Source: Chaetoderma sp. LZ-2023a (Eukaryota; Mollusca; Caudofoveata; Chaetodermatida; Chaetodermatidae). From it: a stretch of DNA of 64,000 nucleotides. Below, piece by piece: positions 8,483 to 56,162 of the stretch (the first letter of the stretch is position 1; every line of letters starts with the position of its first letter). A program made the position numbers and the translations under genes. The notes below the pieces were generated by a model. The model saw only the letters and a list, made by a program, of their open reading frames with translations. It searched no databases and was not told the origin of the DNA. Location: the NCBI GenBank assembly GCA_034401795.1, contig CM067360.1:124903883-124967882 (forward strand), written 5' to 3'.

Positions 8483-9750
8483 ACACGGTTTAAGTCGATC
8501 GAAGTGGACTACTGAGGTCAGGCCATCCGAAGCACGGATACGGTAGGTCATGTCCGACGTCTTATCTACTACCACATAGGGGCCTTTCCACTGGTAACTC
8601 AGTTTACTTGGCACAGTTGCAGACCGTCGTGAATCGTGTACCCAAACCATCTTTCCTGCTTCATACGGATCTCCATGCACCCTCCGGTCGTGCCATGTCT
8701 TGCCGCCGATGTGCAGTGGATAATGTTTCTCTCACTAACTCATGGGCCTGTTCTATCCTCTGCCGCAAGAGTTCAACATAGAGAGATGGTGAATTTTTCT
8801 CTCCTGGTTTCCGAGGCATGGCCAGATCCAGGGCTAATTCATGGCCTAACATTAACTGAGCAGGGGTATAACTCGTGCTGGAATGTACTGAAGTGTGGTA
8901 AGCCATGAGTACATACGGGGGCCATAGGTTCCAATCTCTACAAGGCGTGTTTCCTTTGTAAGCATCTCAGCGAGAGTTCTGTTGAAGCTCTCTACCATCC
9001 CATCACTCCGGGGGTGGTATGGAGTCGTCCTTGTTTTGATGATATGGAACAATTTGCAGAGCTCTGATATGAGCCGCCTCTCAAAATTACTTCCTTGATC
9101 AGAGTGAAACTCATAAGGCATACCAAAATGGCAGAACACATTGCTTGCCAAGACCTCCGCTATGGTGGACGCCTCTTGGTCCGGCAAAGCAAATGCTTCT
9201 ACCCACTTCGTAAAGTTATCTTGTAATATGAGGATGTATTTATTTCCGTCATTCGTCGTATTCAAGGGTCCGAGCATGTTGATAGCCACTCGCTCCCATG
9301 GTGCACCAACAATCTTAATTTGAGATGGTGCGATATGGTGTTGGCCAACAGCGCGTTTTTGGTATGGGATATATTTGGCAACCCATGCCTTGACACTATC
9401 GCGAATCCCAATCCAGTGGAATCTCAATTTGATATGGGCAACAGTCCTTTCCACGGCCAGATGCCCGGCGTTATCATGCAGTTGTTTTAATATAAGATTA
9501 CGATACCTTTCCAGATGGTCATTAATATACAGAACGTTATTTATTAATCAACATTTATCGTGGTGGAAAGTGGTGTTACCGATTCCTTGGGAGGACGTAC
9601 CCCTCCTGGATCCATGCGTATATATTTCGTGTCTGTAAGTCTGTTGTTTGGTGGTGTGCAATTTTCTCTGGATTCCACTCTGCGCACCTCGATTTGGGGA
9701 ACTCCGGAGATGGCTGTGTTGACTGTATCACGATGGCGGCCTCTTCATTT
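8483..9750 (-). pseudogene. Integrase, first repeat unit of element 1
   Basis: A second copy of the integrase region, clearly homologous to 6207-7500, in three broken pieces (9454-8852, 8906-8661, 8680-8483). The first catalytic Asp is Asn here (RVAINMLG), both finger cysteines are lost (AKYIPYQK), and there are frameshifts. It ends with the GPY/F region and HFDRLKPC, then runs straight into RT sequence at 8482. Upstream it is fused near 9750 to mid-RT. So this repeat unit has lost about 0.8 kb covering the RT C-terminus, RNase H and linker. Confidence 0.8.
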
Positions 9751-10594
9751 CAAATTTGCTGTGCGGAAACGGGAAAGCATGTTGTCCAAATTGATTAAGG
9801 TTTGCTCAAACGTTGGTCCGAAGACTATCACGTCATCGATGGTACGGAGACAGATTTCCCATTGCAGGGTGGTTCAATGAGTCGTTCAAAAGTTCCAGGA
9901 GCATTGGAAAAGGCCATCCATACAAACGAATGCGGTCTTTTCCATGTCAGCCTCATCCATGGCCACTTGCCAGTAACTGCTAGCTAAGTCAAGGGTACAA
10001 AACCACTTGGCTCCGGACAAGGAATCCAAGGCCTGATCTATCCGAGGTAACGGATAAGCGTCATTGATGCTAAGATCATTAAGGCGGCGGTAGTCAATAC
10101 AAAACCACAAGGTTCTGTCCTTTTTGCCCGCTAGTACTATTGGGCTAGCCCATGGAGATGCTGAGGGTTCAATAATACTGGTCCGCGACATGTCGTCCAC
10201 TTGTTGTTGTGCTTCCGCTTCTTTATGAATGGGAAAACATTGTACCGGTTGACGTAAGGGGCAATTATTGCCTGTGTCGATTGAGTGTCGTACGAGATGA
10301 GTCTCTCTGAGATCCATGTCTTTTCCGAATTTCAGGTTTCTGTGATTGCTGTAATCCAACTGTGTCACGTAGATATAAATCATGTAAATGTTCGGGTAAA
10401 TCATTAGTCATATGATGTGGTGTGTCAGTAGGTGTAGGCGATTCCAATGAGATTATGCCCACTAAATGGCCGCAGCGTACTCCTGGTTCCAGAGTGATGG
10501 GGTCTGCGGTACCAATGAACACTCTAAAAGGTATATTTTCCTCATTAGTAGTGTCTACTATCATGCGGGGACTTGCGCATTGTGAGGCGATCAT
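9751..10594 (-). pseudogene. Reverse transcriptase N-terminal half, first repeat unit of element 1
   Basis: Residues read include ASPWASPIVLAGKKDRTLWF, CIDYRRLND, the first catalytic region FCTLDLASSYWQVAMDE, and EKTAFVCMDGLFQ. A short deletion then removes the FCKMPYGLCNAP region. The YxDD box is degraded: the residues before the two aspartates are changed (about 9829-9840). An overlapping frame (10594-10265) carries the RT leader. This is the 5' part of pol next to the protease. Confidence 0.8.
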
Positions 10595-10756
10595 GTAATC
10601 AGGATCGGGTTCTGGTACGGCGATGTGTGTGTTGCTTCCTATCTGTGGTGTGGTGGCCCATAAGATTTGTTTTTGTCCCGGCTCAACTGTGACTGTACTG
10701 GATAATATTACAGCACACGTGTCATATAATGATGATGCCAGTCCAAGAGGTATTCG

Positions 10757-11374
10757 TCAGCTGTGTATGTCGAGTTCGTGTTGTTTGCAATGTATGATGG
10801 CTTCGCTGGCACTGAGAATATCAGATCCAAGGAGGGCATCGTTGTGAATAGAGGTGATGACAACTCGCTGTATGAATTGCATCTCCTCTATTTGGATGAC
10901 TAAATTGTCTACACCGGCTATGGCCACATCAGCTCCCATAGCCGTCTGTAGGTAAATGTTTGTAGGTTTAAGGGGAGGCTTCTTATGAGGTGGGATGCTC
11001 TCATATAAGCACTTGTTAAATATAGTGATTGAAGCACCAGTATTAAAGGTGGCACTGGTGGAAACGCCACTAAACAGACTGGCACTCTTGTATATTACTT
11101 TACGGTGTACCTGTGGAAGAGTTTCCAATGACGCCATCTGCGACAAGGGTGTCAGAGCGGAATCGCTCTGTATGTACACTGCCTGTTTCCGAATTGCTTC
11201 TTTTAATGTGGTGGATGGCTGAGTGACGAAAGGGCCAGTTCGTCGTCGCCGCTGCTGTGAGGGCTGCAGTGAAGGCGGAGCTGGGGGTAGCAATGATGAG
11301 GGAGATGTTGCTGTTTCAGGGTATGCTGTATTAGTGTAGACAGCGGTGCGCACAGGATGACTGATAAGCTCCAC
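10757..11374 (-). pseudogene. Aspartic protease of element 1, active-site Asp changed
   Basis: A 205-residue stretch with a retropepsin layout: a flap-like region, AVIAGVD-type strands, and the C-terminal signature ALLGSDIL. The active site, normally DTGA or DSGA, reads FNTGASITIF, with Asn (codon 11042-11044) in place of the catalytic Asp. The N-terminal 80 residues are Pro/Ser-rich linker from gag. It lies between gag and RT, the normal order. Confidence 0.75.
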
Positions 11375-11825
11375 CTGTGCAAGCCATTTCTTGCAAGCTT
11401 CATTTTATGTTTTGTTGAAGCACAGAAGAAACAGTGATGCCGCCAGGGATGTGTTTTTCCCCGTCTACGTCGGCGCTTGCGAATCCATGAGGTGGAGGGA
11501 ACCGTTTCTCCTGAGTCGCTGCTGTCTGTGGGTGCGGGAGATGATGTTGGGTGGGTTTTGGTTTTTTTGCATACCGCCAAAGGACACCGAGAATTCAGTG
11601 TCTTGATGGCAGTACGTGGTGCTTGCAAAACGTTGTTTCGGCGGAGATGCTGCAACCTACCACTGCCGTTCTACACAGGAAAGAAGGCCTGTTATGTGTG
11701 AAGAAAGAGGTGGATGGCGATGCTGCGGATATGGGAGGCATCATAGGCATTGACATATGTGAAGCCGTGCGTTTTGGTGTAGGTGTAAATGCTGAATTTG
11801 GTTGGTAATTGTTGGCCACCGAACA

Positions 11826-13898
11826 TTATTGTATGAAGGCCGCAGTTGAGCCGGGAAGCGAATACGGGCACCGAGGTGACTCTCTCTTCTGTGCCCCTAA
11901 GAGATTTGCTGGCTTCTCTGGTTGCGGTGTGCTGTGGTCAGGGGCAGGCATTGTCGAGGGAGGTTGGTTAGGACACCGTTCCCTCCAATGGCCTGGCTGA
12001 CCACATCCGAAACAGGTGTTTGGTGGCAATGCGGTGTTGGTGGTGTTTGTTGTCCTGAAGTGAGTCATGGCGAGGTTAGTGCTGAGTGTTGTGACTAAAT
12101 TAGTTAGAGTGGAGATCTGCTTATTGATCTCATCTATACATGCTTTCATGTTGCCATTGTTATTATTGCGCTGGTTCCCGTGCCTGGGGGCCCCGTTATA
12201 GCTTCCTCTGCAGACAGGCGCTTGATTCTGATTGGAATTCTGTACAGCTGGTTGTGGTGATGTTTGTGCTGTTGGTGTTGATGATCTGGGGTAGCACTAG
12301 TGGGCATGGCGACAGTGGCACCTTCTATCTCGTTGATGGGGTGAAGTTGGCATCGGCTAATCTTTCCCTGCTCCAGAAAGTTGTCTATACGGACCGCGGT
12401 TGCCATTAATTGGGCCAAACTACCATGGTCACCTAGAAATAACTTTTTTTCAGGGCGGGTTCACCGCTCAATGCATCGATAATCGTGTCAAGATGCAGAT
12501 GGATTACGCCTTCCGTATTGGTGCTCGGATATGCGTGGGTGACTAGTCGTCAGATTCGACTAGCCAACTCTGGAAGAAATTCTGCTGCTCGTCGTTGGAG
12601 ATTTTTGAGTTGAAAACGACTTGTTTCTCCGAGAGCTGTGTCGCCAAATCGCTCCGTCAATGCTCATTCCAATTGAGTGTAGGTGGGTGTGTAGTCAGTC
12701 CCACGATCCGCAAGAACTTGAAGGGCTTTTCCAGAAAGCTTTGCGGCGCGATATTCACCCATTTACTGATCATTCCAGTGGTTAGTCCAACTTATTGTCT
12801 CGAACTGTATTTTGTAGTTGGTCCAGTCATTTTCCCCGCTAAATTCAGGAGGGAGAATGACTTGGCCAAGACCGCGGGAAGAATGAAGTGGTTGAAACCT
12901 GGCTGGTGGTGGTATCTGTGAGACTGACGAGTATTGTGAGGCTGGTCATTGTGCAGGTGGTGTTGGTGGTGCTGGTGTTGGTGTTTACCGTCGATGCCGA
13001 TGACGAGGAGCGAGAACATGCATACTCCAATTTAGTAAATCCTGCCCGTTTGTAGAACCATAGACTGTCATGGGTCTATGGACGGGAGGTGGAATATTGT
13101 GAAGATTACACGGATGCTCTCCCCAAGGTGAGGACTGATATTCCTCATATGGCGGTGGTGCAGTCGGCTGACGGTCATGATATGTAGCATGACTGATGTA
13201 ATGGTGAAAAGGTGGTGCCGATTCCTCCCAATAATGCTGCGGTGTTCCCCTTGAGTATCGCGTTGCGCTAGAGGGGGCGGTGTGGGAGGTTGTCTGTAAT
13301 GTGGATTGTCACCTGGTCATATGGTCTCCATAGATGACACGGGTGAATGATAGTAGTCAAAAGGATTATTTATATGCCCGTAATTGGGTCTTTATCAGGG
13401 TCGTCCATGATTCGGCCCTGATGGAGCTGGCCCGTCGCAGATGTCCGATATGGTTCTAAACTTTGTTCCCGCCTGGGAGGCATCCCTAAAGGTGCCGTCA
13501 CTGACAGGCGAAAACAGGTTATATTGCGGTGTTGTAGATTCCGCAGGAGAATTTCTGGCATAGGCGGTGAGCATGTGAGCTGTGACTCCATCATATGACA
13601 CTACCTCTTGATCGAGGGAGTCATCGCTAAATGGAGACGGTATAGAACTGAGCTCACTATACAGTGTGGGCGTGAGTTCGCTACATGTTAATAATGATAT
13701 TCTTCGAGCTCCACATCGGGCGCCACTTGTAGCTCGCGGGGTAGTGTCGGGCTGTTCTAGTATCTGATGTCGACTCGCCGTGCCACAAGTGCACGACGAA
13801 TGATGACTCTGGTTAGCTTCCGGTCTCGGGGTGACGGATCCTGTACGAGACTTCCTTACGGGTAACAAAGACCGGCTCCTAAGGCTGGTGGAACTCAA
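11826..13898 (-). pseudogene. Gag polyprotein of element 1 (broken)
   Basis: The capsid part is read at about 12840-12430 in minus frames with several stops: MGEYRAAKLSGKALQVLADR, then TERFGD and FLPELASRI, which is typical Ty3/gypsy capsid. Downstream at 12149-11826 is a CCHC knuckle, CFGCGQPGHWRERC (C-x2-C-x4-H-x4-C), for RNA packaging. A Ser/Arg-rich segment at 13898-13395 right after the primer site may be the gag N-terminus or leader. At least four frame changes or stops break it. Confidence 0.75.
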
Positions 13899-17589: not shown

Positions 17590-19099
17590 TCATTCCCATT
17601 GTTTTCTTAAGAACTTGGTGACCAGCTCATGGGCTTTCCTGAGCTCTTGCTCATGAACATTACCAGGTAACATGATTCTCGGGTACTCAGCATCCAATGC
17701 TGATGGTGGGGTTAATGAATACACTATTCCATTATTAACCACATATTCTTCTGGCATGTTCTTAAACAATTCAGGGAATTCTTTGATCTGTTTATTGCCC
17801 AGATCAGGATATGGCACATCATACATTTCTAGTGGAACATGCGGTGACACACCCTCTTCCGCCTCTGTTATGACATAGTCACCAGTATCAAGCAAAGTGA
17901 CTTCAATAGGTCGACATAAACTTGACAACATATCCGTGCGAATATTCTTCGCACCCTGGATATACTCAATCTTACACCCATATTCAGCAATTAGACCTGC
18001 CCAGCGCTGTACCTTCATGTTGTTGACCTCACCAACAAATAAACTCTTAAGAGGTTTGTGGTCAGTATACACAGTAAACTCAGCACCAAATACATATGGA
18101 CAAAGCTTCTTTAATGCATAGATAACAGCGTAAGCTTCCTTCTCTATTACAGGCCAGTTTAATTGACTATCCTTCAGGGTTGAGCTAACATACTGAATTA
18201 TATGTTCAATGCTGCTATCATCTATCTGAAGCAAAATTGCACCTATCATATAGCTTGATGCATCCGTATACAAATTATATGGTTTATTCAAATCCAGATA
18301 CATGAGAACGGTCTCACTACACAGCAAGTTTTTCAATTTCTCAAACACTTGCTGTTCTTCTTTTCCCTATTCAAATCGTTTATATTTCTTTGTGAGTTCT
18401 ATCAAAGGTTTAACAATTTCTGCATAACCTTTCGCACAAGATCGATAATAACCAGCAGCTCCCAGAAAACTTATGACTTCACCCACATCATGGGGTGGTG
18501 ACATTTCACTTATGACCTTAACCTTTTGACTTTGAGGAGCTACTCCTTGTCTCGAAATGCGATAGCCCAGTAAGTCTATGGACGCACTCACAAAGTCACA
18601 TTTCTTTTTCTTCAATTGGAGATTGTACTCCTGAATTTGATTCATTACAAGACGTAAATGACGAGCATGTTTGGTTAGATTTCCTGAATAGACAACTATA
18701 TCATCTACAAGGACATGCACACATTTTCCTACAAATTCGCGAAAAATATCATTCATGGCACATTGTAACACTGCACCTGAGTTGCCAATATCCGGACTTC
18801 AAGTCCGTTATAGAAAATAGTGTTGTGCCTTTCATAGAGTCAAAAATATCGGAGATATTATGTAATTGGTAGCTGTCCTTGCGACATACAGAATTCAATT
18901 TCCTAAATTCCACACAGAAATGGGTATCACCATCCTTCTTGGGTACCAAGGTAATAGGTGACGCCCAAGGTGATGACGATGGTCTTATGATTCCTGCATC
19001 TAATATCTCCGTAACCTGATTTTTGACAAGATATGTCTTTGCTAATGGAATACGATATGCCTTCTGTTGAATTGGAGGGTGATCTCCTGTAGGAATCAT
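17590..19099 (-). pseudogene. Reverse transcriptase and RNase H of element 2
   Basis: RT motifs in order: IIRPSSSPWASPITLVPKKD, FRKLNSV and FSITDLKSGYWQ. About 40 residues are then missing (the segment with the NAP motif), followed by VLVDDIVVYSG with the two catalytic aspartates and the thumb GYRISRQGVAP. RNase H in 18348-17800 has YTDASSYMIG, EKEAYAVIYALKK and YTDHKPL, all three acidic motif regions. The tail has an acidic linker toward integrase. Breaks: a deletion near 18770 and a stop near 18366. Confidence 0.8.
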
Positions 19100-19204
19100 A
19101 CATTGTACTTGGGCATATGTCCAAGAGTGTTGGGATGAGCCGTATCGAAATTATTGTAAGTACTTGGTCAATAACTGCATATCTGGTCGTTTCTTTGCAA
19201 CTAG

Positions 19205-19610
19205 CATAAATGTAGACACTTTGAGGTCTGAAGGGTATTTTAAATGGATATCCTTTCTGGAACCATACCACTTCCCTCTTCCCATAGTCGATCTTTGCTT
19301 TACCCATATTCAAAGCATCTGCACCAATCAAACATTCATGCCTCATGGGTTCCACAACCATGATCAAAATTGGCCTGGCATCTTGAAACCTTACTTGAGT
19401 TTCGCCTAATATGTCTATTGGTGAGCCATTTTTGGCTAACAAAGTGTGAGCCTTCCTTAATGGACGAGCATTTAAGATGCTCCTCTATATATCCTTTCTA
19501 ACAAGAGAGGTGCTAGCACCAATATCTATCAATGCATCTAGGTACTCACCCCTGTTGTCCACTTGACCATTCGTTTCAACATCTAGCTGGATGAGGAACC
19601 TTTCAGTCAC
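19205..19610 (-). pseudogene. Aspartic protease of element 2
   Basis: The active site reads ALIDIGASTSLV (about 19505-19540), keeping the catalytic Asp. After a stop at about 19490, the chain continues with HECLIGADALNMG, the second signature of retropepsins. It lies between gag and RT. Broken by a stop and probable frame changes. Confidence 0.65.
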
Positions 19611-21819: not shown

Positions 21820-22354
21820 TCAGAAACTCTCTTTTCGAAAAGCTGAGAAGACTGCTTCATTGTATGCGTACCCCTCGGTGATAAAATCTTTAGTTTCCCG
21901 ACAAATTATTTTAATGAGCGTAGAGTTCTGTAATCTTCTCCACAGGAACATTATATTTATACACATTGCAACTAAAGCTTCAGCATATACGTAAATAGTC
22001 ACATTACCTCTACCAATTGGGTCTGTATTCACTTCACCATCCTCATCTTCTAAGCCTGATTGTTCAGTGTGTAAGACCCGCTTAACATTTTGGAACATGG
22101 CGAATAGTTCCTGATTGCCTATGGCTTCTTTTTCATTTTCACCTTCATCTTCACTCTCAGACTCTGCTGAGTCATCACCGGCTTCACTCTCAGACCCTAT
22201 TGGCTCATCATCTTCGCTCTTCATCTTTGTCATTTCTTCATATTCACTGGCTAGATTTTGCTATCTTCATTGTTATGGAATCGGATCTTATGCCACTTCA
22301 GGTCATTTGACCTATCAGAAGTTGAATCACATTCAGAACATTTACATCTCGGCA
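21820..22354 (-). pseudogene. Decayed copy of the C2H2 zinc-finger acidic protein
   Basis: Starts MPRCKCSECDSTSDRSNDLK with the finger C-x2-C-x12-H-x4-H kept. A one-base deletion after EDSK then breaks the frame. The acidic middle and the C-terminal part (LQNSTLIKII, GYAYNEAVFSAFRK) continue in another frame (22233-21820). A second one-base deletion truncates the tail about 30 residues early relative to the intact copy at 27594-28208. Function unknown. Confidence 0.75.
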
Positions 22355-22542
22355 TATTGATTATAGGATAAATCTAGCAAGCGTTCAAGTTCCAAGGTCC
22401 TTCAAACAAATCCTCTGACTGCCTAAGGCTACCTAACTACTCTGCAGTTAAAATGCACATCCACCCACTTTGGGATATTTAAACTGGAGTGAGAAAAGGG
22501 ATTGAATTTGAACCATTTTATAGGATTATATATACTGCGGCT

Positions 22543-22790
22543 GCAAATCTGCAACATGCGGCTACAAATCCACATATGCGGCCGCAATTCCGCAATATGC
22601 GGCCACAAATCCACAACATGTGGCTGCAAATCCGCACATACACGTTTATATATCGCCAAGGCAACTCTGAACTTCACCTGAATATTAGCAGCCACAAATC
22701 CGGACATGCGACCACAAATCCACAACATTCAGTCCCATATACACAACGTGCGGCCACAAATCCGCAACATGCGGTTGCAAATCCGGGGCT
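22543..22790 (-). repeat. GC-rich 15-21-bp minisatellite, inverted copy
   Basis: Repeats of a unit like GCAAATCCGCAACATGCGGC, the reverse complement of the arrays at 26870-27432 and 29884-30560. It sits directly upstream of the TATA box and leader of the pseudogene copy, as in the other cassettes. Confidence 0.8.
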
Positions 22791-23576: not shown

Positions 23577-24776
23577 GATCGTTAGTAGTTAAGGGTGCGG
23601 CTGGTCGCTATTGTTCTTTTCGTTGGAATGTGGTTTTAGCCAATCAAAACGCTCCATTTCATTTTCTAGCGTTTGGAGAAAAATGGCGACCAGGGGCACA
23701 CGCATTCTAGAGGACAATGGCGACTATAACGCCACGTTTTTCTAGATAACAATAGCGACTATATTCACACGTATTTGAGAATCTGCAACACTGGAATGTT
23801 CTATTATTTTGAATGAGTTAACCCTTAAAAGTATAAAAGTTGTGTATTTTACGTTTGAACGTAGTGGCGGCGGTCCCCCCTCCGTGGTTATCTACCATTG
23901 TAAAAATAATAAGAGAGTGATGTAAAATAATAGAGTTTAAGAGGTGGTCTGATAACGGAGGTCGTGGGAGGAGGAGGAGGTTGAGGAGTTTGAGGATGAA
24001 TGCAATGCCGGCCGGCCGAGTGGTCTGATAGTAAACTGTAGAATATTTAGAGATTGCCTGTAAGCTGTTAGTAAGCAACAGCTACCAGTGGATTGTATCA
24101 TGGGTTAAAAAAGTTAACCCTTTCACCGATGAATATATATCTCATTTTCATCGATACCGTACAGGAAAACTGTTGAATATTTTGAAAATAATTTGACTGC
24201 CTGTGTCAGTTGAGGCGGAATGCTATAGTATTCCTCCTCAGTTGATATTGCTGGATGAGGGCGATGCTAGCATACTTGTTTACAAGGTATGCATGATGTA
24301 CGAATATTTTGATAATTTGTTGCTGAATATTTTGATAATTTGAGTGGTAGCTGAATATTTTGATAATTGGTTCCTGAATATTATGATAATCGGTTGCTGA
24401 ATATTTAGATTGGTTGCTGAATAAATTGATTGGTTGCTGAATATTTTGAAAACGATTTGACTGTGTAAATTTCTTATTAGGCGATGTTAGGTAAGAGAGA
24501 GGGGGTCTTATAACGGAGGTCGAAGGAGGAGGGAGGAATGCTATCTAGGCCAGCAAAATGTGTTCCCCAGTCATTTAATTTTCAAAAATCAGACACGTAC
24601 ACAGGAAGTTTTCCTATGCTATTATATAGATAGTGTTATCTATCGTATTTATGTCTCTAAAATGGCAGTCATTTAATTATTAAATTTTCAAAAATATGGA
24701 CAAAATGCATTCCTTGTCAATGGCAATGCATTAATCGACCGCGAACAATAGCGTACAGATGCCCATTTAGAACAGT
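23577..24776 (+). repeat. Left arm of the 1.2-kb inverted repeat
   Basis: Matches the reverse complement of 31223-32426 nearly base for base, with some stretches of over 100 bp identical by eye. Contents inward: CCAAT-like box, three to four copies of a motif like AACAATGGCGACTAT, the hairpin GGGTTAAAAAAGTTAACCC, an AT-rich 24-bp minisatellite (24300-24470), and the common GAATATTTTGAAAATAATTTG motif. Confidence 0.85.
24300..24470 (+). repeat. AT-rich 24-bp minisatellite inside the left arm
   Basis: About six imperfect units of TTGCTGAATATTTTGATAAT type. The mirror array is at 31545-31710 in the right arm. Confidence 0.8.
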
Positions 24777-24792
24777 ATCGTTGGTATTGATA

Positions 24793-25190
24793 CTAGTAAA
24801 ATAATAGAGTTTAAGAGGTGGCCCGATAACGGAGGTCGTATGAGGTTGAGGATGTATGAGGAATTACGGTATTGATGTTTGAAAATAATTTGACTGTTTC
24901 GTCGCTAACGTTATTAGTATACTGTAGAATATTTAGAGACTGTCCATAAGCTGTTAATAAGCAACAGCTACCAGACAGATTAGTAACAAAATATTAAAAA
25001 TAATCTCGTATTAATGGTATGTATGGTTGGAATGGTAACCAAGACTAGGTGGTGATGGATTCATTGGATTGTATCATGGGTTAAAAAAGTTAACCCTTTC
25101 ACCGATGAATATATATCTCATTTTCATCGATACCATACAGGAAAACTGTTGAATATTATGAAATTAATTTGACGTTGTTAACGTTATTAG
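24793..25190 (+). repeat. Degenerate direct copy of part of the left arm
   Basis: Repeats 23920-24190 with gaps: the AGAGTTTAAGAGGTGG block, the AAGCAACAGCTACCAG block, and the GGATTGTATCATGGGTTAAA block including the palindromic GGGTTAA/TTAACCC. This suggests an older inverted-repeat end nested inside the present one. Confidence 0.7.
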
Positions 25191-25830
25191 TAAAACTATT
25201 TTTGTTGAATATTTTGATTGAATTTTAACCGACATTACGCACAAATTGTTTTAAAATACTTTGCAATAACATCAGACGTTTTAGATACGATGTTTAAAAT
25301 GTGGTCATTATGTCTCTGAGGGTTCCGTTTATAGAATTGTATGTCGAGCGTACTTATGCTAAAAATATTATTTGATGCGTATGATTTATCCATACATCTT
25401 GAATAGCCGTGGGATCGGTCCTTAATCGAGTTACAAACACGGCACGTGTTAATAACGAAAGAATGTTAAAGCACCAAGTTCAATCTTAAATTGAGATACA
25501 AACATGTCATGTGTTAAGGAATACTATAAGAATATACCACCCGTCTCATTCTAAGCACGGGATATTACAATGTCCTCGCCGAGAGTTTGTGAAAATCGAT
25601 AATAACGCCCGCTCACCGGCTATTGCTGTTTACCGACGCTTAAAGATATGACAATTAAGAGCAACATTTTGAGCGTAGTAGCATAATCATATATAAATAT
25701 ATCCTTTTGGCTACAGAGCAGTGATACGTTATAACCATGTTTTTAACTATATAATTCAGTCCTGCCCTAAGCGACCACCTCATGTTGCGCCATTACATGG
25801 ATGCTAGAGACTTTCTTAACCCTTTTAACC
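25190..25830. other. No gene seen
   Basis: AT-rich sequence without a recognisable frame, RNA gene or clear repeat. Confidence 0.5.
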
Positions 25831-26815
25831 CTCGAATTTCTTCATATTCATATTTGTGGTACAAGAGAAGACTATTTTTGAAAATGTATCAATGACTGGC
25901 ACTGCAGGCTATCCATTTGTCTAGTCATTGCGCCGGCAAACACCCCCACCAACCACCATCATCACCGCCAACACCCACCACCACCACCACCACCTCCACT
26001 ACTACGACCTACACCCAGCACCATGCATTAACCCCACCAACACTATCACCCATGCACCCGCCAACCCATAGCAAATTTCTTCATATTCATACTTGCATCC
26101 TTAGAGAAGACTATTTTTGAAAATGCATTAACCCTACCACCACCACCACCCACGCACCCGCCAACCCATAGTGAATTTCTTCATATTCATACTTGCATCC
26201 TTAGAGAAGACTATTTTTGAAAATTTATCACCGGAATGACTGACTCTGACAGCTATCCATTTATCTAGACATTGTGGTCGGAATGTGTGAGAGCTCTGTG
26301 TTTGAAAAAATGGCATATAGGTTGGAGAGGGTCATGAGGATTTAATAAAGGTCTCGCTCGTATGCACACATGCTAATACGCAATACTGCTAGTTATATGT
26401 TGTGCGTAGGTGCCTGCGTGCAACACTACGACCTACACCCAACACCAGGCATTAATCCCACCACCAACACCCACCCACCCGACAACCCATAGCGAATTTC
26501 TTAATATTCATACTTGCAGCCCTAGAGAAGACTATTTTAGAAAATTTATCATCGGAATGACTGACTCTGACAGCTATCCATTTGTCTAGACATTGTGGGC
26601 ATAATGTGTGAGAGCGAGGTGTCTGAAAAATGGTATGTAGGTTGGAGAAGGTATGTCATGAGGGTTTAATATAGGTCACGCTCGTATGAACACGTGCTAA
26701 TACGCGATACTGCTAGTTATACGTTGTACCCTTGTGCGTGCCATGGTGTGTGCCCTTGCGCGCATGCGTGCGCCAGAAGACTTTTTGAAAATTTTTCATC
26801 GGAATGACTGGCTCT
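25830..26815 (+). repeat. Irregular tandem duplication with CAC-rich spacers
   Basis: A block starting near AATTTCTTCATATTCATACT and containing GAGAAGACTATTTTTGAAAA recurs at about 25836, 26068, 26172 and 26496, with a partial copy at 26775. It is separated by (CACC)n-rich stretches. A block with GCTAATACGC and CTGCTAGTTATA recurs at about 26370 and 26695. Non-coding. Confidence 0.7.
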
Positions 26816-26869
26816 GCTGGCTAAAATGTATACGTACATGTGCGAACGCATGCGGTCCGCATGTTGTGA

Positions 26870-27432
26870 ATTTGCGGGCGTATATTGTGGATTGCGGGCG
26901 CATGATGCGGATTTGCGGGCGTGTGTTGCGGATTGCGGGCGTATGATGCAGATTTGCGGGCGTATGTTGCGGATTTGCGGGCGCATGATGCGGATTTGCG
27001 GCTGCGTCTTGTGGATGGCAACAAGTGTATGTACATGCCTGAACATGCATACACGCCAAAATATATGCATACATGTGCGGCCGCACGCGGGCCACGTGTT
27101 GCGGATTTGCGGGCGTATGTTGCGGATTGCGGGCGTATGATGCGGATTGCAGGCGTATGTTGCGGATTGCGGGCGTATGATGCGGATTTGCGGTCGTATG
27201 TTGCGGATTTGCAGGCGCATGATGCGGATTTGCGGGTGTGTGTTGCGGATGGCACCAAGTGTATGTACATGCCTGAACACGCATACACGCCAAACTGCAT
27301 GCATACATGTGCGGCCGCATGCGGGCTGCATTTGCGGATTTGTGGGCGTATGTTGCAGATTGCGGGCGCATGATGCGGATTGCGGGCGCATGTTGCGGAT
27401 TTGCGGGTGCATATTGTGGATTTGTGGCCGCA
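26870..27432 (+). repeat. GC-rich 15-21-bp minisatellite upstream of the zinc-finger gene
   Basis: Units alternate between TTGCGGATTTGCGGGCGTATG-like (21 bp) and 20-bp forms. They are interrupted about every 230 bp by a longer conserved insert containing CATGCCTGAACACGCATACA and GTGCGGCCGCATGCGG, giving a higher-order repeat. Open frames on both strands run through it because 21-bp units preserve phase; they are not genes. It ends directly upstream of a TATA box. Confidence 0.85.
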
Positions 27433-27593
27433 GTACATATAATCCTATAAATGGTGCAAGTTCAATTCCTTTTCTCATTCCAGTTTAAACATCGCAAAGT
27501 GGTTGGACGTGTAACTGCAGAGTAGTAAGGCAGTCAGATTTCTTTGAAGAACCTTGTAACTTGAATACTTGCTAGATTTATCCTATAATCAAT
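27433..27593 (+). promoter_or_regulatory. TATA box and leader of the zinc-finger gene
   Basis: TATAAA at 27446-27451 follows the minisatellite. A leader of about 115 bp leads to the ATG at 27594. The block from CAGTACATATA to GGCAGTCAGATTTC (27431-27541) is shared with 30564-30686 and, inverted, with about 22430-22535, so it is a repeated promoter cassette. Confidence 0.65.
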
Positions 27594-28208
27594 ATGCCGA
27601 AACATAAATGTTTTGAATGTGGTTCAACTTTTAATAGGTCAAATGACCTGAAGCGGCATAAGATCCGATTCCATAATGCTGAAGATAGCGAAAATCTAGA
27701 CAGTGAAGATGAAGAAATGACAGAGATGAGGAGTGAAGATGATGTATCAGCGGAGTCGGAGAGTGAAGCCGGTAATGACTCAGCGGAGACTGAGAGTAAA
27801 GATGAAGGTGAAGATGAAAAAGAAGACATAGGCAATGAGGAACTATTTACCATATTCCAAAATACTAAGCATGTCTTAGACGCTGATCAATCAGGTTTAG
27901 AAGATGAGGATGGCGAAGTGGACACAGACCCGCATGGTGTAGGCAATCTGCCTATTTCCGTATATGCTGGTGCTTTAGTTACAAAGTGTATAGACATAAT
28001 ACTCCAGTCGAGAAGATTACAGAACTCTACGCTCATTAAAATAATTCGTCAGGAAATTAAAGATTTTATCGACAAGGGGTATGCATACGATGAAGCAGTC
28101 TTCTCAGCCTTTCGAAAACGAGAGTTTCTGACCAAGAAGTACATAAGGAACCATCTAGATGCTGAGGATAATGATGATGATTCTGTCGGCGATAGATCTG
28201 ATCCATAA
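27594..28208 (+). CDS. C2H2 zinc-finger acidic protein, element-borne (204 aa)
   Basis: An intact 204-residue frame, not recognised as a known family. Residues 5-26 form one classical finger, CFECGSTFNRSNDLKRHKIR plus the last His (C-x2-C-x12-H-x4-H). Residues 30-115 are very acidic (Glu/Asp/Ser), like an activation or chaperone-type region. Residues 118-185 are helix-prone and more conserved (LQNSTLIKIIRQEIKDFID, GYAYDEAVFSAFRKREF), and the tail is acidic. A start at the first ATG after the leader fits a weakly favourable context. An inverted, frameshifted copy (21820-22354) keeps roughly 70 percent of residues by eye, mostly the finger and C-terminal block, which suggests past selection. 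Possible roles are nuclear: DNA binding or regulation of the element. No enzymatic motif is present. Confidence 0.7.
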   Translation: MPKHKCFECGSTFNRSNDLKRHKIRFHNAEDSENLDSEDEEMTEMRSEDDVSAESESEAGNDSAETESKDEGEDEKEDIGNEELFTIFQNTKHVLDADQSGLEDEDGEVDTDPHGVGNLPISVYAGALVTKCIDIILQSRRLQNSTLIKIIRQEIKDFIDKGYAYDEAVFSAFRKREFLTKKYIRNHLDAEDNDDDSVGDRSDP

Positions 28209-28339
28209 GGAATCAGTCATCGATAAATGGATCTCCAGAACATTGACTATTTGTTTATGCTACTGCAACTATACGTTTTTATCATATGTAATATTTACTT
28301 CAATGTGAAAATATGGATACACATAAAACATTGGTTCTT

Positions 28340-28640
28340 TATGCGTGTGTTTGATGATTGTAGCTTCCCAGCCGGGTCCCCCACATCCCTCGATATACAA
28401 ATCGGAGTGCTGATGCTGTTGGCAGTGGTGGCGGTGGTGGGGTTGGCGGATGATGAAAATAGGTGTTGTGGTGGATGATGGTGGTGGGGTTAATGCTTGG
28501 TGGTGGGTGTTGGTGCTTAGTGGGTAGTGGTGCTGATGGTTATAGAGGGATGGTGATGGTGGTGATGGTGATGGAGGTGATGGTCGGTCTTGGTAGTAGA
28601 TGATTGCGGTCGCAATGTCCAGACAATGGTTAGCCAACTA
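28340..28640. repeat. GTG-rich 3' flank of the zinc-finger unit
   Basis: Low-complexity GTG/GAT-rich stretch that follows the gene. The inverted copy has the complementary CAC-rich stretch at 21430-21550, so the simple repeat is part of the duplicated unit. Confidence 0.7.
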
Positions 28641-28794
28641 TATTATTTTTGTTGTCGGGGGTCTCATTGACTAGGTACTCATAATGCATTCATACTGTGT
28701 GTACCCAGACATGGTAATTTTTCCTAGTTTATTACCGTTAACTGGCTGACTGGCGAGGTGTTTCAGACATTCCAGGGATCTACTTCCTAGCAAA

Positions 28795-28935
28795 ATATTA
28801 TGGAAACGATTTGAGCAAAAGTTGATGCAGACAGTCAAATTATTTTCAAAATATTCACTAAATATCATGGAAATGATTTGATAGAAAGTTGTCGCTAACA
28901 CCTCAGTCAAATTATTTTCAAAATATTCGTACAAC
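28795..28935. repeat. Two hairpin-family units
   Basis: Two copies of TCAAATTATTTTCAAAATAT, each preceded by a diverged inverted partner (ATATTATGGAAACGATTTGA, ATATCATGGAAATGATTTGA). They are members of the palindromic family found across the window. Confidence 0.6.
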
Positions 28936-28975
28936 GCGCATTGTAGGCCTTGTAAACAAGTATGCTAGTATACCT

Positions 28976-29805
28976 CATCCCTCGTGCCAGGCATCACCAC
29001 GCTAGCATACATCATCCCTCCTCCTCCTCCTAACTCATTTGACCTCAATTATGCGACCACCTCTACACTCATTCCAGTTATTTTCTGATTCTTCAAACCT
29101 ATATCATGATGCATTGGTAGCTTAAGCGAATAGTTTTGATACTAATTTGACATAGGAAGCTAGAATTCGCACAAGCGCCTTCGTGCGCACAAACTCTTAA
29201 AAGTGCTGTTCAATGCGACAATTTGACATAGGAAGCCACGATTCCGCTTAATTTCAAAATACTTTTTTACTACAACCACGAGGGACCGCATCGACCACCT
29301 AATACGTTAAACGATCCAAGGGTGCTCGTCATTATTCGTCAACGATGACGACGTTGGGCATTGTTCCCACTATTTTTATAACAATTTTTAAAATTTAATA
29401 ATACGAGATGCATGATGATTATATGTATAATATTATGCATACAACATCGCTTGGCTTAGCTATATATTACCCGCATAGAGATATACTTTGCTCTCTGTTA
29501 AAAAAATTAAATAACTGGTTGGAAGCCGCTTAGTTTTGAGGGTTTTAGATGAAGGTTAACGCGTTTGCATACAAATTGAAGGATTAAAAGCGAATCATAA
29601 ATGCTTTATGCACAATACCGAGGTGGTCAGAGAAAACATATTTCCCTGGATACTTTTATAATGCGCACAGATTTTTATGCGCATAAACCATTTAACAAAC
29701 TGATCCATAGCGTCTAGCCCGTGAACATATCCAAGATTTTCGCCTGCATGTATGTGTCATTATATGGAGGCCAGTATGCGACAGTTTTTGATAGGACGCT
29801 AGTCA
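28976..29805. other. No gene seen
   Basis: AT-rich sequence with a duplicated AATTTGACATAGGAAGC motif (about 29145 and 29220). No frame or RNA gene is recognisable. Confidence 0.5.
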
Positions 29806-30560
29806 TCTCACGCGATATTCCTTATATTTTTTTTTGTAGTAGAGCGATGTAGTATAAATGTAAATGTTAATGTCCTTTTGGCTAAAATGTGTTGTGGATT
29901 TGCGGGTGCGTGTTGCGGAACGCACCAAGTGGAAGTACATGCCTGAACACGCATACACGCCAAAATGCATGCATACATGTGCGGCCGCATGCGGGTGTGT
30001 GTTGCGGATTTGCGGGCGTATGTTGCGGATTGCGGGCGCATGATGCGGATTGCGGGTGTGTGTTGCAGATTACGGGCGTATGATGTGGATTTGCGGTCGT
30101 ATGTTGCGGATTTGCGGGTGCATGATGCGGATTTGCAGGTGTGTGTTGTGGATGGCAATAACTATATGCACATGCCTGAACACGCACGCATACACGCCAA
30201 AATGCATGCGTACATGTGCGGCGCATGCGGGCCGCATTTGCGGATTTGCGGGCATATGTTGCGGATTGCGGGTGCATGTTGCAGATTGCGGGCGTATGTT
30301 GCGGATTGCGGGCGTATGATGCAGATGGCAACAAGTATATGTACATGCTTGAACACGCATACATGCCAAAATGTATGCGTACATGTGCAGACGCATGCGG
30401 TCCGCATGTTGCGGCTTTGCGGGCGTATGTTGCGGATTTACGGGCGTATGTTGCGGATGGCACCAAGTGTATGTACATGCCTGAACACGCATACACGCCA
30501 AAATGCATGCGTACATGTGCGGCCGCATGTGGGTCGCGTGTTGCTGATTTGCGGATTTTC
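29806..30560 (+). repeat. Third GC-rich minisatellite with flanking direct repeat
   Basis: The array at 29884-30560 uses the same units and higher-order inserts as 26870-27432. The insert recurs near 29940, 30170, 30350 and 30475. An 80-bp block before it (29806-29888, ending GGCTAAAATG) is repeated at 30688-30772, where it leads into the Cys-rich gene. The array therefore looks inserted at, or duplicated from, that gene's start. Confidence 0.8.
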
Positions 30561-30770
30561 GGCAGCAGTACATATATTCATATAAACGGTACAAATTCAA
30601 TCCATTTTCTCATTCCAGTTTAAACATCGCAAAGTGGTTGGATGTGTAACTGCAGAGTAGTTAGGTAACCTTAGGCAGTCAGATTTCATCTCACGAGATA
30701 TTCCTTATATATTTTTTTTGTAGTAGAGCGATGTGGTATAAATGTAAATGTTAATGTACATTTGGCTAAA
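30561..30770 (+). promoter_or_regulatory. Promoter cassette of the Cys-rich gene
   Basis: Same cassette as upstream of the zinc-finger gene: minisatellite end, CAGTACATATA, TATAAA (30581-30586), and the leader with CATTCCAGTTTAAACATCGC. A second TATAAA at 30737-30742 lies only about 30 bp before the ATG, too close for a normal leader, so the upstream box is the better candidate. Confidence 0.55.
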
Positions 30771-31079
30771 ATGGCCAGCAGTACAAACTTTGACGGATCA
30801 GACACTTGGTATGTGCAGTGTCATTGGTGTTCCAGCGACATCCGCGACACCATATGCCGACGGTCGAAACACGAGATGGTCTGTAGGCGTATGATCAAGA
30901 AAACAGAACCTAAAGAGATGGTGTACACCTGCAAGGAGTGCTATTGTCTATTACCAATCAAACAGTATCTGCATGGGTGTCCTGTAATCGGTGATACTCC
31001 GACTGATATACAAAAAGCAAACATGTCGCAGTTTGTTACCAAACTGACAACCGCGCCTGTGCGGATCTGCGAAGAATGA
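30771..31079 (+). CDS. Cys-rich zinc-binding-like protein with histone-type 3' end (102 aa)
   Basis: An intact frame starting at ATG 30771 (MASSTNFDGSDTWYVQC). An in-frame TTG three codons upstream is less likely to be the start. Residues 17-38 hold C-x2-C-x13-H-x3-C, and residues 55-72 hold C-x2-C-x10-H-x-C, so two compact zinc-binding modules are likely. The linker between them is basic and the C-terminus polar. There is no signal peptide or membrane segment. I do not recognise the family; it is not a histone. Seventeen bases after the stop is a replication-dependent-histone-type stem-loop. The gene lies just inside the right arm of the inverted repeat and shares its promoter cassette with the zinc-finger gene. 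Confidence 0.7.
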   Translation: MASSTNFDGSDTWYVQCHWCSSDIRDTICRRSKHEMVCRRMIKKTEPKEMVYTCKECYCLLPIKQYLHGCPVIGDTPTDIQKANMSQFVTKLTTAPVRICEE

Positions 31080-31096
31080 GACCTATCTCAAAACAC

Positions 31097-31136
31097 GGCC
31101 CTTTTCAGGGCCCACAAATCATTCGAAAGAGAACTC
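31097..31136 (+). promoter_or_regulatory. Histone-type mRNA 3' stem-loop and downstream element
   Basis: GGCCCTTTTCAGGGCC (31097-31112) forms a six-pair stem with a TTTC loop, preceded by AAAACAC and followed by CACAAATC. About 12 bases later comes a purine-rich GAAAGAGAA (31125-31133), as in the U7 snRNA-binding downstream element. Known family function: SLBP binding and polyA-independent, S-phase-linked 3' processing. Spacing after the stop is as in histone genes. Confidence 0.85.
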
Positions 31137-31222
31137 TTTATCTGTTCAAAAAATAAAATAACCTGCTTCACACATGCATACGCAAGCACACATACTGATC
31201 CGTAAAAAGTGGTCGATGGATG

Positions 31223-32426
31223 CTACTGTTCTAAATGGGCATCTGTACACTATTGTTCGCGGTCGATTAATGCATTGCCATTGACAAGGAATGCATTTTG
31301 TCCATATTTTTGAAAATTTAATAATTAAATGACTGCCATTTTAGAGACATAAATACGATAGATAACACTATCTATATAATAGCATAGGAAAACTTCCTGT
31401 GTACGTGTCTGATTTTTGAAAATTAAATGACTGGGGAACACATTTTGCTGGCCTAGATAGCATTCCTCCCTCCTCCTTCGACCTCCGTTATAAGACCCCC
31501 TCTCTCTTACCTAACATCGCCTAATAAGAAATTTACACAGTCAATTCGTTTTCAAAATATTCAGCAACCAATCAATTTATTCAGCAACCAATCTAAATAT
31601 TCAGCAACCGATTATCATAATATTCAGCAACCAATTATCAAAATATTCAGCTACCACTCAAATTATCAAAATATTCAGCAACAAATTATCAAAATATTCG
31701 TACATCATGCATACCTTGTAAACAAGTATGCTAGCATCGCCCTCATCCAGCAATATCAACTGAGGAGGAATACTATAGCATTCCGCCTCAACTGACACAG
31801 GCAGTCAAATTATTTTCAAAATATTCAACAGTTTTCCTGTATGGTATCGATGAAAATGAGATATATATTCATCAGTGAAAGGGTTAACTTTTTTAACCCA
31901 TGATACAATCCACTGGTAGCTGTTGCTTACTAACAGCTTACAGGCAATCTCTAGATATTCTACAGTTTACTATCAGACCACTCGGCCGACCGGCATTGCA
32001 TTCATCCTCAAACTCCTCAACCTCCTCCTCCTCCTCCATGACCTCCTTTATCAGACCACCTCTTAAACTCTATTATTTTACATTACTCTCTTATTATTTT
32101 TACAACGGTAGATAACCATGGAGGGGGGACCGCCGCCACTACGTTCAAACGTAAAATACACAACTTTTATACTTTTAAGGGTTAACTCATTCAAAATAAT
32201 AGAACATTCCAGTGTTGCAGATTCTCAAATACGTGTGAATATAGTCGCCATTGTTATCTAGAAAAACGTGGCGTTATAGTCGCCATTGTTCTCTAGAATG
32301 CGTGTGCCCCTGGTCGCCATTGTTCTCCAAACGCTAGAAAATGAAATGGAGCATTTTGATTGGTTAAAACCACATTCCAACGAAAAGAACAATAGCGCCC
32401 AGCCGCATCCTTAACTTCTATCGTTG
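31223..32426 (-). repeat. Right arm of the 1.2-kb inverted repeat
   Basis: Reverse complement of 23577-24776, nearly identical, including the 24-bp minisatellite (31545-31710), the GGGTTAAC hairpin and the TCGCCATTGTT repeats near the outer end. Homology stops sharply at both sides. Confidence 0.85.
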
Positions 32427-37246: not shown

Positions 37247-38290
37247 CTACAAATCACAGAGCACAATCAAATCTATCTGTTAGGCATCTAACCATCGCAA
37301 TGGCAGAGTATAATCAAATCTACTTGGTAACCATCTAAACCACGCAATGGCAGCGCATAATCGAATCTACCTGTTAGCCATCTAACCCTTGCAATGATAG
37401 AGCCCAATCAAATCTACCTGTTAGCCATCTAACACTCCCAATAACAGAGCATAATCAAATCTACCTGTTAACCATCTATCCCTCGCAATGACATAACACA
37501 CTCAAATCTACCTGTTAACCAACTAACCCTCGTAATGCCAGAGCATAATCAAATCTACCTGTTAACCATCTAACCCTCGCAATGACAGAGTACACTCGAA
37601 TCTACATGTTAGCCATCTAACCATCGCAATGACAGCGCATGATCAAATCTACATGTTAGCCATCTAGCCCTCGCAATGACAGAGCATAATCAAATCTACA
37701 TGTTAGCCATCTAACCTTCGCAATGACAGAGCATAATCAAATCTACCTGTTTACCATCTAATCCTCGCAATGACAGAGCCTAACCAAATCTACCTGTTAG
37801 CCATCTAACCCTCGCAATGACAGAGCATAATCAAATCTACCTGTTTACCATCTAACCCTCGAAATGACAGAGCATAATCAAATCTACATGTTAGCCATCT
37901 AGCCCTCGCAATGACAGAGCATAATCAAATCTACATGTTAGCCATCTAACCTTCGCAATGACAGAGCATAATCAAATCTACCTGTTTACCATCTAATCCT
38001 CGCAATGATAGAGTACAATCAAATCTACTTGTTAGCCATCTAACCCTCGCAATGACAGAGCATACTCCAATCTACCTGTTAACCATCTAACCATCGCAAT
38101 TACAGAGCATAATCAAATCTACCTGTTAACCATCTAACCCTCGCAATGACAGAGCAAAATTAAATCTAATTGTTAGCAATCTAACCCTCGCAATCACAGA
38201 GCATAATCAAATCTACATGTTAGCCATCTAGCCCTCACAATGACAGAGCATAATCAAATCTACATGTTAGCCGTCTAACTATCGCAGTGT
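37247..38290 (-). repeat. 47-bp satellite, about 22 units, abutting a splice acceptor
   Basis: The unit contains CAATGACAGAGCATAATCAA and ATCTACCTGTTAGCCATCTA followed by ACCCTCG (plus strand). The array starts directly at the 3' splice site of the 37156-37246 exon. Some multi-unit blocks (for example around 37660-37750 and 37860-37990) are almost identical, so it has expanded in larger blocks. Confidence 0.92.
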
Positions 38291-52302: not shown

Positions 52303-55300
52303 TTATACAAGTTCCGCTTCTGATATTTTTAGATATCCGTATTCAATTGATACTAGGCCAGTTTTGCACCATACGTCTTTAAATCTACTTTCTCTCCCAT
52401 GTTCTACTAGCCTGTAAAATTCACAATGAATGCAGTTTATCAACAATGATCGAAATATAGCTTGTATGGCTCTCTGATGGTTGTTGCCGGTTTTATCTCT
52501 GGCCTCTGAACACCGATGCTTCCAGATGGCCCACACTCCTACAGATAACAGGGTTATTAACAATTCTTTCTCCTTGCTATTAATGATTCTGGCAATCGTT
52601 GAACAAAATTGTTTCAGCCACTAAATTCACATATTTGGTTCCAAATTTAGCAAGGAGCATATTGATATATACCCAAAAGCCTGTAGTTATGCGACACTGA
52701 GTAAATAGATGGTCTATCGTTTCCTCCTCAGTATTACATAATAAGCACCGGTCTGTACTTGATATTTTACACATATAAGTAAGATGACCGACCCATAGCC
52801 TTCGATGGAGTAATCGCCATGCCAGGTCCCGTGCATTTCCTGGTAGACAAGGTAGATGTATTGCTTTCCAGGTATTTTTCCAGTTCTTTGGCGTGCATCC
52901 TAAATTGTTCCAATGCCTAACCACAATAGGAGTCTGTCTCCGACTTTGCATTAGAATTCTATACCAGTCTCTAGATGCCATGTTGTATTTTATATGTTCT
53001 GACATAAATACTAATGTTGGTTGCAACATATCAATGTTGCCACATGCTTTCGGCAATTTGAACCATACAGCAGGTATTGAATTCTTTATTCTAACAAATA
53101 AGCGCTGAGCATCAATATGTCTCATTGATGTTATTCTTGCTACATCTTGCATCGCAATCCATTCACGAGATTTCGGATTTACCAAGTCAAGTAAATATTG
53201 AATACCATTTTTTGCCATAGAGGGCAAATATACTACATCATCATTATCACGAATCAACTCGTTGCCCCAAAGACAATGCTCTAAGGCATCTTCCCAACAA
53301 TTGGGTTGTGGCATTGCTCGTGTAAATATTTTTAAGGCTTCGAGCTGTTCTTTATATACATTTGGAATCTTTTGATGATTAGGTGGCAATTTATTGCACA
53401 TAAATAAACATTCTACTGGAAATGGGTCAACTTACCTTTGGAGAGGTGCCCTTGAAACACTTGACCAAGATGAGCTTGAAGTAAGTAACTTATTCAAGAA
53501 TTTCAATTTTAAAGAAATACACTTTGCTGAAACATTAACCAAATCCAGGCCTCCGACATGCTTTTCATTGGTGAGGATTGACTGTGATACTAAATGGGCT
53601 TTGCCCTCCCATAAGAAGGACAAAAGTAACGTGTTGATCTTTGACTCTACTGATTTGGGCATATGAACTACAGAAGAGGTATACCACAGTCCAGATAAAA
53701 TTAAATTATTAAGGACAAATGTCCTGCCAAAGACAGTTAGGCGACGTCGTTTCCAATTTAGTAATGCACACTTTAGCTTGGATATCCTTTCTTCCCAGTT
53801 TGGTAATACATTTTGTTCTCTACTAAAGTAAATACCCAAAATTTTTATAACATCATTTGAGCAGTTAATATCCATCACATTATCAGTTCTGCCCTTCCAA
53901 TCGCCAAAAACAATCCCTTAGATTTATCTTTATTGACTTTAAGTCCTGATGCCTTTTGAAAATCTGTTAATACTCCATTTAAAATTCTAAAATCGGTATT
54001 TTTACCCGCAAACACAGTCGTATCATCTGCATATTGAGAAACCTTTAGTGGCCTTTCTACGCCACGTATACATATTCCTTGAAAGTCATTGCGTTGGTTC
54101 AATGTGGCCCCCAACGATTCCATAGCCATGACGAATAGAAGCGGGGACAGTGAGCAACCCTGTCTGACACCTCGTTCCAACACTACAGGTTTGGATAGCT
54201 GATTGTTAACTAAATAGCAACTTGTTATATCAGTATAAAAAATATTGACCCATTTAATAAATCTTGAACCAAAGCCAATATGGTCTAAAGACTTAAACAA
54301 GAAATCCCATTCTAGTCTGTCAAACGCCTTCTCGTTATCAAGTGCTATTATTGCTGCTGGGATACAATCCTTTTCAACTAATTGAATAAGGCCCCGTATA
54401 AGCAAAGTGTTGTTTAATATTGATCTTCCTGGCACAGAGCAGGTTTGATCATCATGAATGACTTCGCATAGGACTGCGCCAATTTGTAATGTTAGTGCCC
54501 GAGTAATAATCTTATAATCTACACAGGGTAGAGAGATTGGTCTATAATTCTGTATTTTATTTCTGTCACCCCTCTTGTATATAAGCCGAACATATGCTTG
54601 GGCCATCGATGTAGGGAGATGCCCTTGCTTAAAAATGCTGGTTGCTATTTCTTCTAATACTGGCCCAAATATGTGCCAGAATGTTTGATAAAATTCAACT
54701 GGAAGTCCGTCACATCCAGGAGACCTTTCTAACTTCATACCTTTGAGGGATTTTGTCAAATCATCAATTGTTATTGATTGGTCACAGCTTTCGCGACATG
54801 AATCTGGAAGTCTTTTCGTTATATTAGCTAAAACATCTCTAGTTGCAGTTTCCTCGCTTCCCTCAGATTTATACAATGATTTGTAAAATTCGGATACTGT
54901 TTCAATCATTTCTGCATTTGAGCACACTGATACTCCATCATTAGTCTTCAGTGAGCGCATTAATTTCTCTATACCTCTTGCTTTTTCCAAGTTACAAAAG
55001 TAAAGTGTAGGCTTTTCGCCCTCGGTGTGCATTTGTGCTCTTGACCTTATTTTGGCGCCATCAAACTGATATTGCTCTATTTCATTTAGTCTACCTTTTA
55101 ATTTAACTAATAGTTCGTAATAAATATATTCCCCATCATTAATTTTCTTATTGATTTTACACAACGACCTCTGAAGCGCCTTTTTACGCTTTCGTATTTG
55201 GCGTGCTTTCCTGATGGAATACTGCCTTGACATATATTTCAGGTCTGATTTAGCATCTTCCCACCAGTCTGTTATACATTCATACGAACCTCTTCTTTCA

Positions 55301-56154: not shown

Positions 56155-56162
56155 TAGATTAA

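Follow-up and report, generated by a model that had tools for sequence, protein, structure and literature searches.

A Polinton-type element of Chaetoderma with a histone-type 3' end on a cysteine-rich gene

What is a histone-type 3' end doing behind a gene that does not encode a histone and that is carried by a mobile element? The question arises from a cysteine-rich reading frame, ORF B, in a 64-kb stretch of the genome of the mollusc Chaetoderma sp., which was analysed as a whole and is referred to below, at its full length, as the window. None of the titles and abstract openings surveyed in the literature links Polintons or Mavericks with histone-type 3' ends, and none of them claims a use of the histone 3' signal by a non-histone gene or by a transposon. 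What appears to be new here is a Polinton-type element bearing a host histone-type 3' end.

The carrier element and its two genes

ORF B lies inside a discrete insertion with long terminal inverted repeats (TIRs), a flanking target-site duplication (TSD) and virus-like Polinton relatives, which bears out the mobile or viral-derived carrier that had been supposed in the initial annotation. Its boundaries are as follows.

23578..23583, no strand: left TSD, ATCGTT, identical to 32420-32425
23584..32419, plus strand: mini-Polinton element of 8,836 bp, recognised by its termini, its TSD and colinear copies elsewhere
23584..24777, plus strand: left TIR of ~1.2 kb, 96-99% complementary to 31224-32419
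31224..32419, minus strand: right TIR, which pairs with the left arm
32420..32425, no strand: right TSD, ATCGTT, a perfect 6-bp match to the left copy

The element begins with AGTAGTTAAGGG on the left and, read on the complement, with AGAAGTTAAGGA on the right; ends of the form AGTAGTTA are common to many copies, and the right end of the window element reads AGAAGT. The AGTAGT end and the ~1.2-kb TIRs correspond to the long repeats and AG-type ends of Polintons, and the duplication (ATCGTT/ATCGTT) has the 6 bp of Polintons/Mavericks. Vertebrate Mavericks are recognised, according to the portion of the source drawn on here, by (AGT)2//(ACT)2 end motifs together with perfect 6-bp duplications (PMC8097293), and the same combination therefore marks the termini of the element as being of Maverick/Polinton type. 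Twenty long loci were fetched around copies and both ends were located by script in 10 of them, which alone were scored for the TSD: six have a perfect 6-bp duplication, two match at 5 of 6 positions (one inside a TA repeat) and two are mismatched (L035 and L038). A decayed histone cluster, which had been named beforehand as an explanation that would undo the idea of an element-borne signal, is ruled out because what stands here is an insertion with a TSD on either side.

The gene set of Polintons comprises PolB, a retroviral-type integrase and, in many of them, capsid proteins, as stated in the part of the source consulted (PMC6431247). None of these genes was seen among the ORFs of the window element, which is therefore a non-autonomous mini-Polinton and not an autonomous one. 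Only ORFs A and B stand out within it and the remaining long frames sit in minisatellites. The window copy thus shares with Polintons/Mavericks the long TIRs, the (AGT)2-type ends and the 6-bp TSD, but differs in its length of 8.8 kb and in its gene content. In having Polinton-type termini and a TSD without genes for replication and integration it resembles the non-autonomous deletion derivatives of DNA transposons, although, unlike these, it is not non-coding and keeps two apparently intact genes. The two genes and their upstream regions are laid out in the same orientation.

26823..27432, plus strand: GC-rich minisatellite (units of ~20, 41 and 234 bp), 5' of gene A
27414..27530, plus strand: promoter-like block of gene A, with a TATA-type box and, 31 nt downstream of the first base of the box match, TCATTCCAG
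27594..28208, plus strand: ORF A, 204 aa, with an N-terminal C2H2 finger and an acidic middle
29990..30554, plus strand: minisatellite 5' of gene B
30549..30665, plus strand: promoter-like block of gene B, with TATAAA at 30581-30586 and TCATTCCAG at 30610-30618
30771..31079, plus strand: ORF B, 102 aa, Cys-rich, with ATG at 30771 and the stop TGA at 31077-31079

The two promoter-like blocks (27414-27530 and 30549-30665) are 89% identical, and the TATA-to-TCATTC spacing of 31 nt is the same in both genes and recurs in copies; we take the TCATTC to resemble a histone cap-site motif. ORF A scores 18.8 bits against the Pfam zf-C2H2 model, below the cut-off of 25.2, and no histone-type stem-loop is present at its 3' end in the window or in the 21 sequences with mini-element copies. 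ORF B contains two cysteine/histidine patterns, C-x2-C...H-x3-C and C-x2-C...H-x-C, and its product is probably a zinc-binding protein. The claim that this protein is not a histone agrees with the outcome of the Pfam search, in which ORF B has no match at E values up to 1. More broadly, it has no meaningful match in Pfam, PADLOC, PHROGs or the PDB and no candidate relative in a set of 5.8 billion proteins, and neither ORF A nor ORF B has relatives among viral contigs.

Two features of the gene B leader may be recorded here. The interval 30666-30722 has the form GT...TTTTTTTTGTAG and may represent an intron of very small size, which would be unusual in a histone-type mRNA. The leader is also duplicated (95% identity, 29828-29889 against 30712-30773), with the copy at 29828-29889 lying upstream of B's minisatellite, as if the minisatellite and promoter had been inserted or duplicated before B.

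The 3' end of gene B and the host stem-loop sites

Behind the stop codon of ORF B the following features are found in close succession.

31097..31112, plus strand: histone-type stem-loop GGCCCTTTTCAGGGCC, with a 6-bp stem and a TTTC loop, identified from the sequence, Rfam, a consensus scan and folding
31123..31131, plus strand: TCGAAAGAG, resembling a histone downstream element (HDE), 10 nt 3' of the stem and also present at 3 of 5 fetched host stem-loop sites
31125..31131, plus strand: GAAAGAG, read directly
31134..31144, plus strand: CTCTTTATCTG, an additional likeness to host stem-loop sites
31152..31157, plus strand: AATAAA, a possible polyadenylation signal, read directly

The gap between the stop of ORF B and the stem-loop is 17 nt, so that the stem-loop originally described 17 bases past an intact 102-codon frame stands at precisely these coordinates, and the GAAAGAG that had been placed at the distance of a U7-binding element is likewise present, with host sites carrying the same motif at near-equal spacing. 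The flank conforms to the stem-loop consensus of replication-dependent histone 3' ends: the degenerate form GGYYYTHHYHARRRCC matches once in the 64-kb window against an expectation of 0.08, and the 16-nt hairpin has a folding energy of -9.9 kcal/mol (z -2.8). The Rfam Histone3 model (RF00032) gives a full-length match at 31092-31137 (26.1 bits, E 4.5e-5 for 701 bases searched), which falls under the gathering score of 34 for this model, and no match of the whole window to Rfam reaches a gathering score.

The host genome provides its own standard for comparison. A genome-wide Histone3 search, with 75 candidates scored, returned at least 48 matches, of which 47 exceed the cut-off. Many are located in ~6.3-kb tandem arrays on contigs C601, C602 and C2637, with another group on C8; tandem arrays are as expected of histone clusters, and we infer that these host sites are histone genes. 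Five host 3' ends were fetched, and four of them (L050-L053) have exactly GGCCCTTTTCAGGGCC. Three of these four (L051-L053) also have the exact TCGAAAGAG, 11 nt after the stem as against 10 nt in the element, whilst L050 has TCGAAAGAA 10 nt after the stem. These identities, in the stem-loop and in the spacing and sequence of the HDE-like motif, uphold the description of the signal as histone-type. The fifth site (L054) has the stem-loop form GGCTCTTTTCAGAGCC and a different downstream part, and this form occurs only 1+1 times genome-wide, versus 259+273 for the form of the element with host sites counted in.

The resemblance continues past the motif, where the host sites read ATCTCTTTAT (L053), ATCTTTTTATCTG (L051) and ATCTATTTATCT (L052) and the element reads AACTCTTTATCTG. 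As this likeness extends beyond the two known signals, it favours the capture of a host histone 3' flank; a need for extended pairing with U7 could also account for it. The host encodes SLBP, whose RNA-binding domain (PF15247) gives four matches above cut-off at two loci. The Rfam search for U7 gave no match anywhere in the genome and its controls were silent too, hence it carries little weight, and a guessed U7 pattern gave one match versus two in the control.

Gene B is thus like the replication-dependent histone genes of metazoans in possessing GGCCCTTTTCAGGGCC, as at four of the five host sites, with TCGAAAGAG 10 nt past the stem, and unlike them in encoding a non-histone Cys-rich protein, in belonging to a mobile element and in having AATAAA after the signal. 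A parallel for the last point may be offered by the histone genes of C. elegans, where, in the part of the report used here, a hairpin and AATAAA are found close together and the majority of the mRNAs are described as being without poly(A) (PMC1924863). The hairpin, a putative HDE and AATAAA follow in the same close order as in gene B, whereas the C. elegans genes, so far as this part of the account goes, are histone-coding and have another HDE core (AATCC).

Copies of the signal and the link to Polintons

Gene B is present in hundreds of copies, B-carrying Polintons included. The exact 16-mer GGCCCTTTTCAGGGCC occurs 532 times (259+273) in the 2.44-Gb genome, host sites counted in, against 0+1 for a reversed-pattern control. 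The same 16-mer followed after 9-13 nt by TCGAAAGAG occurs 322 times (149+173), again with host sites counted in, and the control gives 0+0. Among 100 places listed of these 322, the spacing is the 10 nt of the element in 95, 11 nt in four and 9 nt in one.

Retention was followed in the 3' flanks of ORF B fetched from 25 distinct places, the window's own among them. The exact stem-loop is found in 19 of the 25 and GAAAGAG in 21, with both together in 17; TCGAAAGAG is found in 19, and in 16 it accompanies the exact stem-loop. AATAAA is present at +50 to +120 in 22 of the 25. Where the exact stem is absent, the cause is a change of the first base (L002 and L030), substitutions (L039, L044 and L045) or truncation (L006), and in L002-L004 TCGAAAGAG has drifted to TTTGAAAG. 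The concern, raised at the outset, that other copies might lack the stem-loop is thereby answered, both by these flanks and by the genome-wide total, although the copies descend from one another and the counts accordingly show retention and not independent origins.

The exact stem-loops of contigs C1-C3 were listed in full. Among the 32 B copies scored there, one stands where expected in 22 and is missing from that place in 10. These contigs hold 94 exact stem-loops, of which 22 are at scored B copies and 26 are accounted for by listed copies of A or B; most of the others are taken as putative B copies outside the best 150. Here too, an exact stem-loop follows 16 of the 36 listed copies of ORF A at a distance of 1-7 kb; the other 20 have none in that range. 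In the 21 sequences holding mini-element copies there are 16 consensus stem-loops, every one at gene B and none away from it.

The best-scoring 150 copies of each gene were taken from 982 first-look candidates for ORF B and 3,347 candidates for ORF A. Among 149 A and 150 B copies so chosen, there are 41 A-B pairings within 8 kb; the distance is 1.5-6.1 kb, and the two genes always point the same way. A dN/dS-like ratio for 24 distinct B copies is 0.39 for singletons, 0.35 for those shared by two or more and 0.77 for those shared by four or more, and the corresponding values for 31 distinct A copies are 0.78, 0.36 and 0.25; the counts for both genes are biased because the copies were chosen by protein score.

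A relation of the window element to the PolB-bearing elements of the same genome was found: some Polinton loci have gene B beside PolB, a PC4-like gene or a Cys-rich gene. The PolB search (PF03175) gave 147 matches from the best 75 scored of 2,661 candidates, and B lies on the same strand, 7.6-12.2 kb downstream of PolB, in 3 of the 75 PolB entries compared, which were meant to be one per locus. One of the three has a tandem neighbour, which provides a fourth pairing at 17.2 kb. One of these elements is on C15. Its PolB and B are separated by L049, which contains a PC4-like gene (PF02229, 22.5 bits, cut-off 25) and a Cys-rich gene, with no Histone3 match at either. The pair is seen at L049:815-1757, the Cys-rich gene starting ~0.5 kb after the PC4-like coactivator gene. 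The window element and L049 share no match of more than 150 bp, which shows that B at this locus is not inside a nested full mini-element.

The PC4-like and Cys-rich genes serve as further markers of Polintons. The best 150 scored entries of each, from ~1,800 candidates each, include 86 pairs within 3 kb, and merging the entries listed for the two genes gives 214 Polinton loci. At seven of the 214 listed loci B lies on the same strand, 4.9-7.0 kb downstream of one or both genes; most of the listed Polintons are thus without B. There are eight B pairings downstream within 15 kb versus 0.10 expected, eight and not seven because of one tandem pair, and the same tandem pair yields the only upstream pairing, with none on the opposite strand. 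On C1-C3, 3 of 39 listed Polinton loci have an exact stem-loop downstream versus 0.07 expected, and no exact stem-loop lies within 15 kb of the other 36. The mini-element probably derives by reduction from a B-bearing Polinton. None of the listed PolB, PC4-like or Cys-rich entries has ORF A in its vicinity, so that ORF A may be peculiar to the mini-element. BLASTP shows no likeness between ORF B and the Polinton Cys-rich gene, and the latter has six candidates in the 5.8-billion protein set, none at E 0.01.

Accounts of the signal and the surroundings of the element

The account that is considered probable is that a Polinton lineage gained a host histone-type 3' end on gene B, whose transcript would be an SLBP- and U7-processed S-phase mRNA. 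A Polinton/Maverick lineage would have taken the 3' end onto the Cys-rich gene, probably from a host histone gene, and an internally reduced non-autonomous derivative, represented by the window element, would then have kept gene B and multiplied. Transcription of gene B would start at the gene's own TATA-type promoter, the stem-loop would be bound by the SLBP of the host and TCGAAAGAG by the U7 snRNP, and the pre-mRNA would be cleaved between the two in place of polyadenylation to give a short mRNA without poly(A). With such processing the B protein would, it is proposed, therefore be made mainly in S phase, while the element and the host DNA replicate. An element replicating with or alongside host DNA would in this way have a Cys-rich protein timed to replication.

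The main grounds for doubting this account are the conserved AATAAA and the altered stems. With AATAAA kept in so many fetched copies, the B mRNA may be polyadenylated. The motif is not decisive, since it occurs beside the hairpin in the C. elegans histone genes discussed above (PMC1924863) and since cryptic downstream poly(A) sites are used in Drosophila lacking SLBP, as described in the part of the source consulted (PMC2781718). The absence of a U7 match, the loss of the stem in 6 of 25 fetched flanks and in 10 of 32 scored copies on C1-C3, and the 36 of 39 listed Polinton loci on C1-C3 without a nearby exact stem-loop also count against it.

Some of these observations lend weight to a rather unlikely account, in which the histone 3' flank was captured once and merely hitch-hikes, the B mRNA being polyadenylated at AATAAA and the signal being useless. 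Retention of AATAAA in 22 of 25 copies, the missing exact stem in six and the drift to TTTGAAAG would all be in keeping with such a relic, and as the copies are close relatives, retention of the signal alone is no proof of selection. Against this, four copies (L002, L003, L004 and L035) depart from the window type in their downstream sequence, and the exact stem-loop survives in three of them, GAAAGAG likewise in three; moreover, the signal sits 17 nt past the B stop, as would be expected of the gene's own 3' end.

Less probable still is that ORF B is unexpressed and that its copies are dead passengers of Polinton enzymes, the signal having been functional only in an ancestral element. An internal stop does interrupt 14 of the best 150 B copies, but the other 136 are open, a proportion that is biased because these are the best scorers of 982 candidates, and the TATA-to-TCATTC spacing is preserved in many copies. 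A chance hairpin bearing no relation to histone processing can be set aside: although eight of 100 shuffled versions of the window contain at least one match to the degenerate consensus GGYYYTHHYHARRRCC, 25 fixed bases are the same as at host sites with near-equal spacing, and the 322 spaced occurrences of stem-loop and TCGAAAGAG face a control of zero.

The match between the 3' end of gene B and the signal apparently used by the histone genes of the host suggests that the element borrows the S-phase mRNA machinery of its host. More tentatively, a virus-like element lineage may have taken over the host SLBP/U7 pathway in a manner tied to S phase, which would be the first non-histone use of the pathway in a mobile element. 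If true, gene B would offer a natural test of the effect that a histone-type 3' signal has by itself on a gene of another kind. It would also illustrate a way in which expression of a virus-like DNA element could be coupled to the replication of host DNA.

The surroundings of the element contain further repeats. Directly to its left, at 21820-22785 on the minus strand, is an inverted, diverged (86-89%) copy of ORF A, preceded by a comparable block and accompanied by a minisatellite; it is part of a second, decayed relative. Remains of Gypsy-type retrotransposons, with integrase, RNase H and protease domains, lie at 5437-12296 and 17590-19484 (both minus strand), and a non-LTR retrotransposon at 52580-57514 (minus strand) has ORFs with reverse transcriptase, zf-RVT and zinc-knuckle domains. 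Between the element and the latter, at 37252-38286, a 47-bp unit is repeated in 22 tandem copies.
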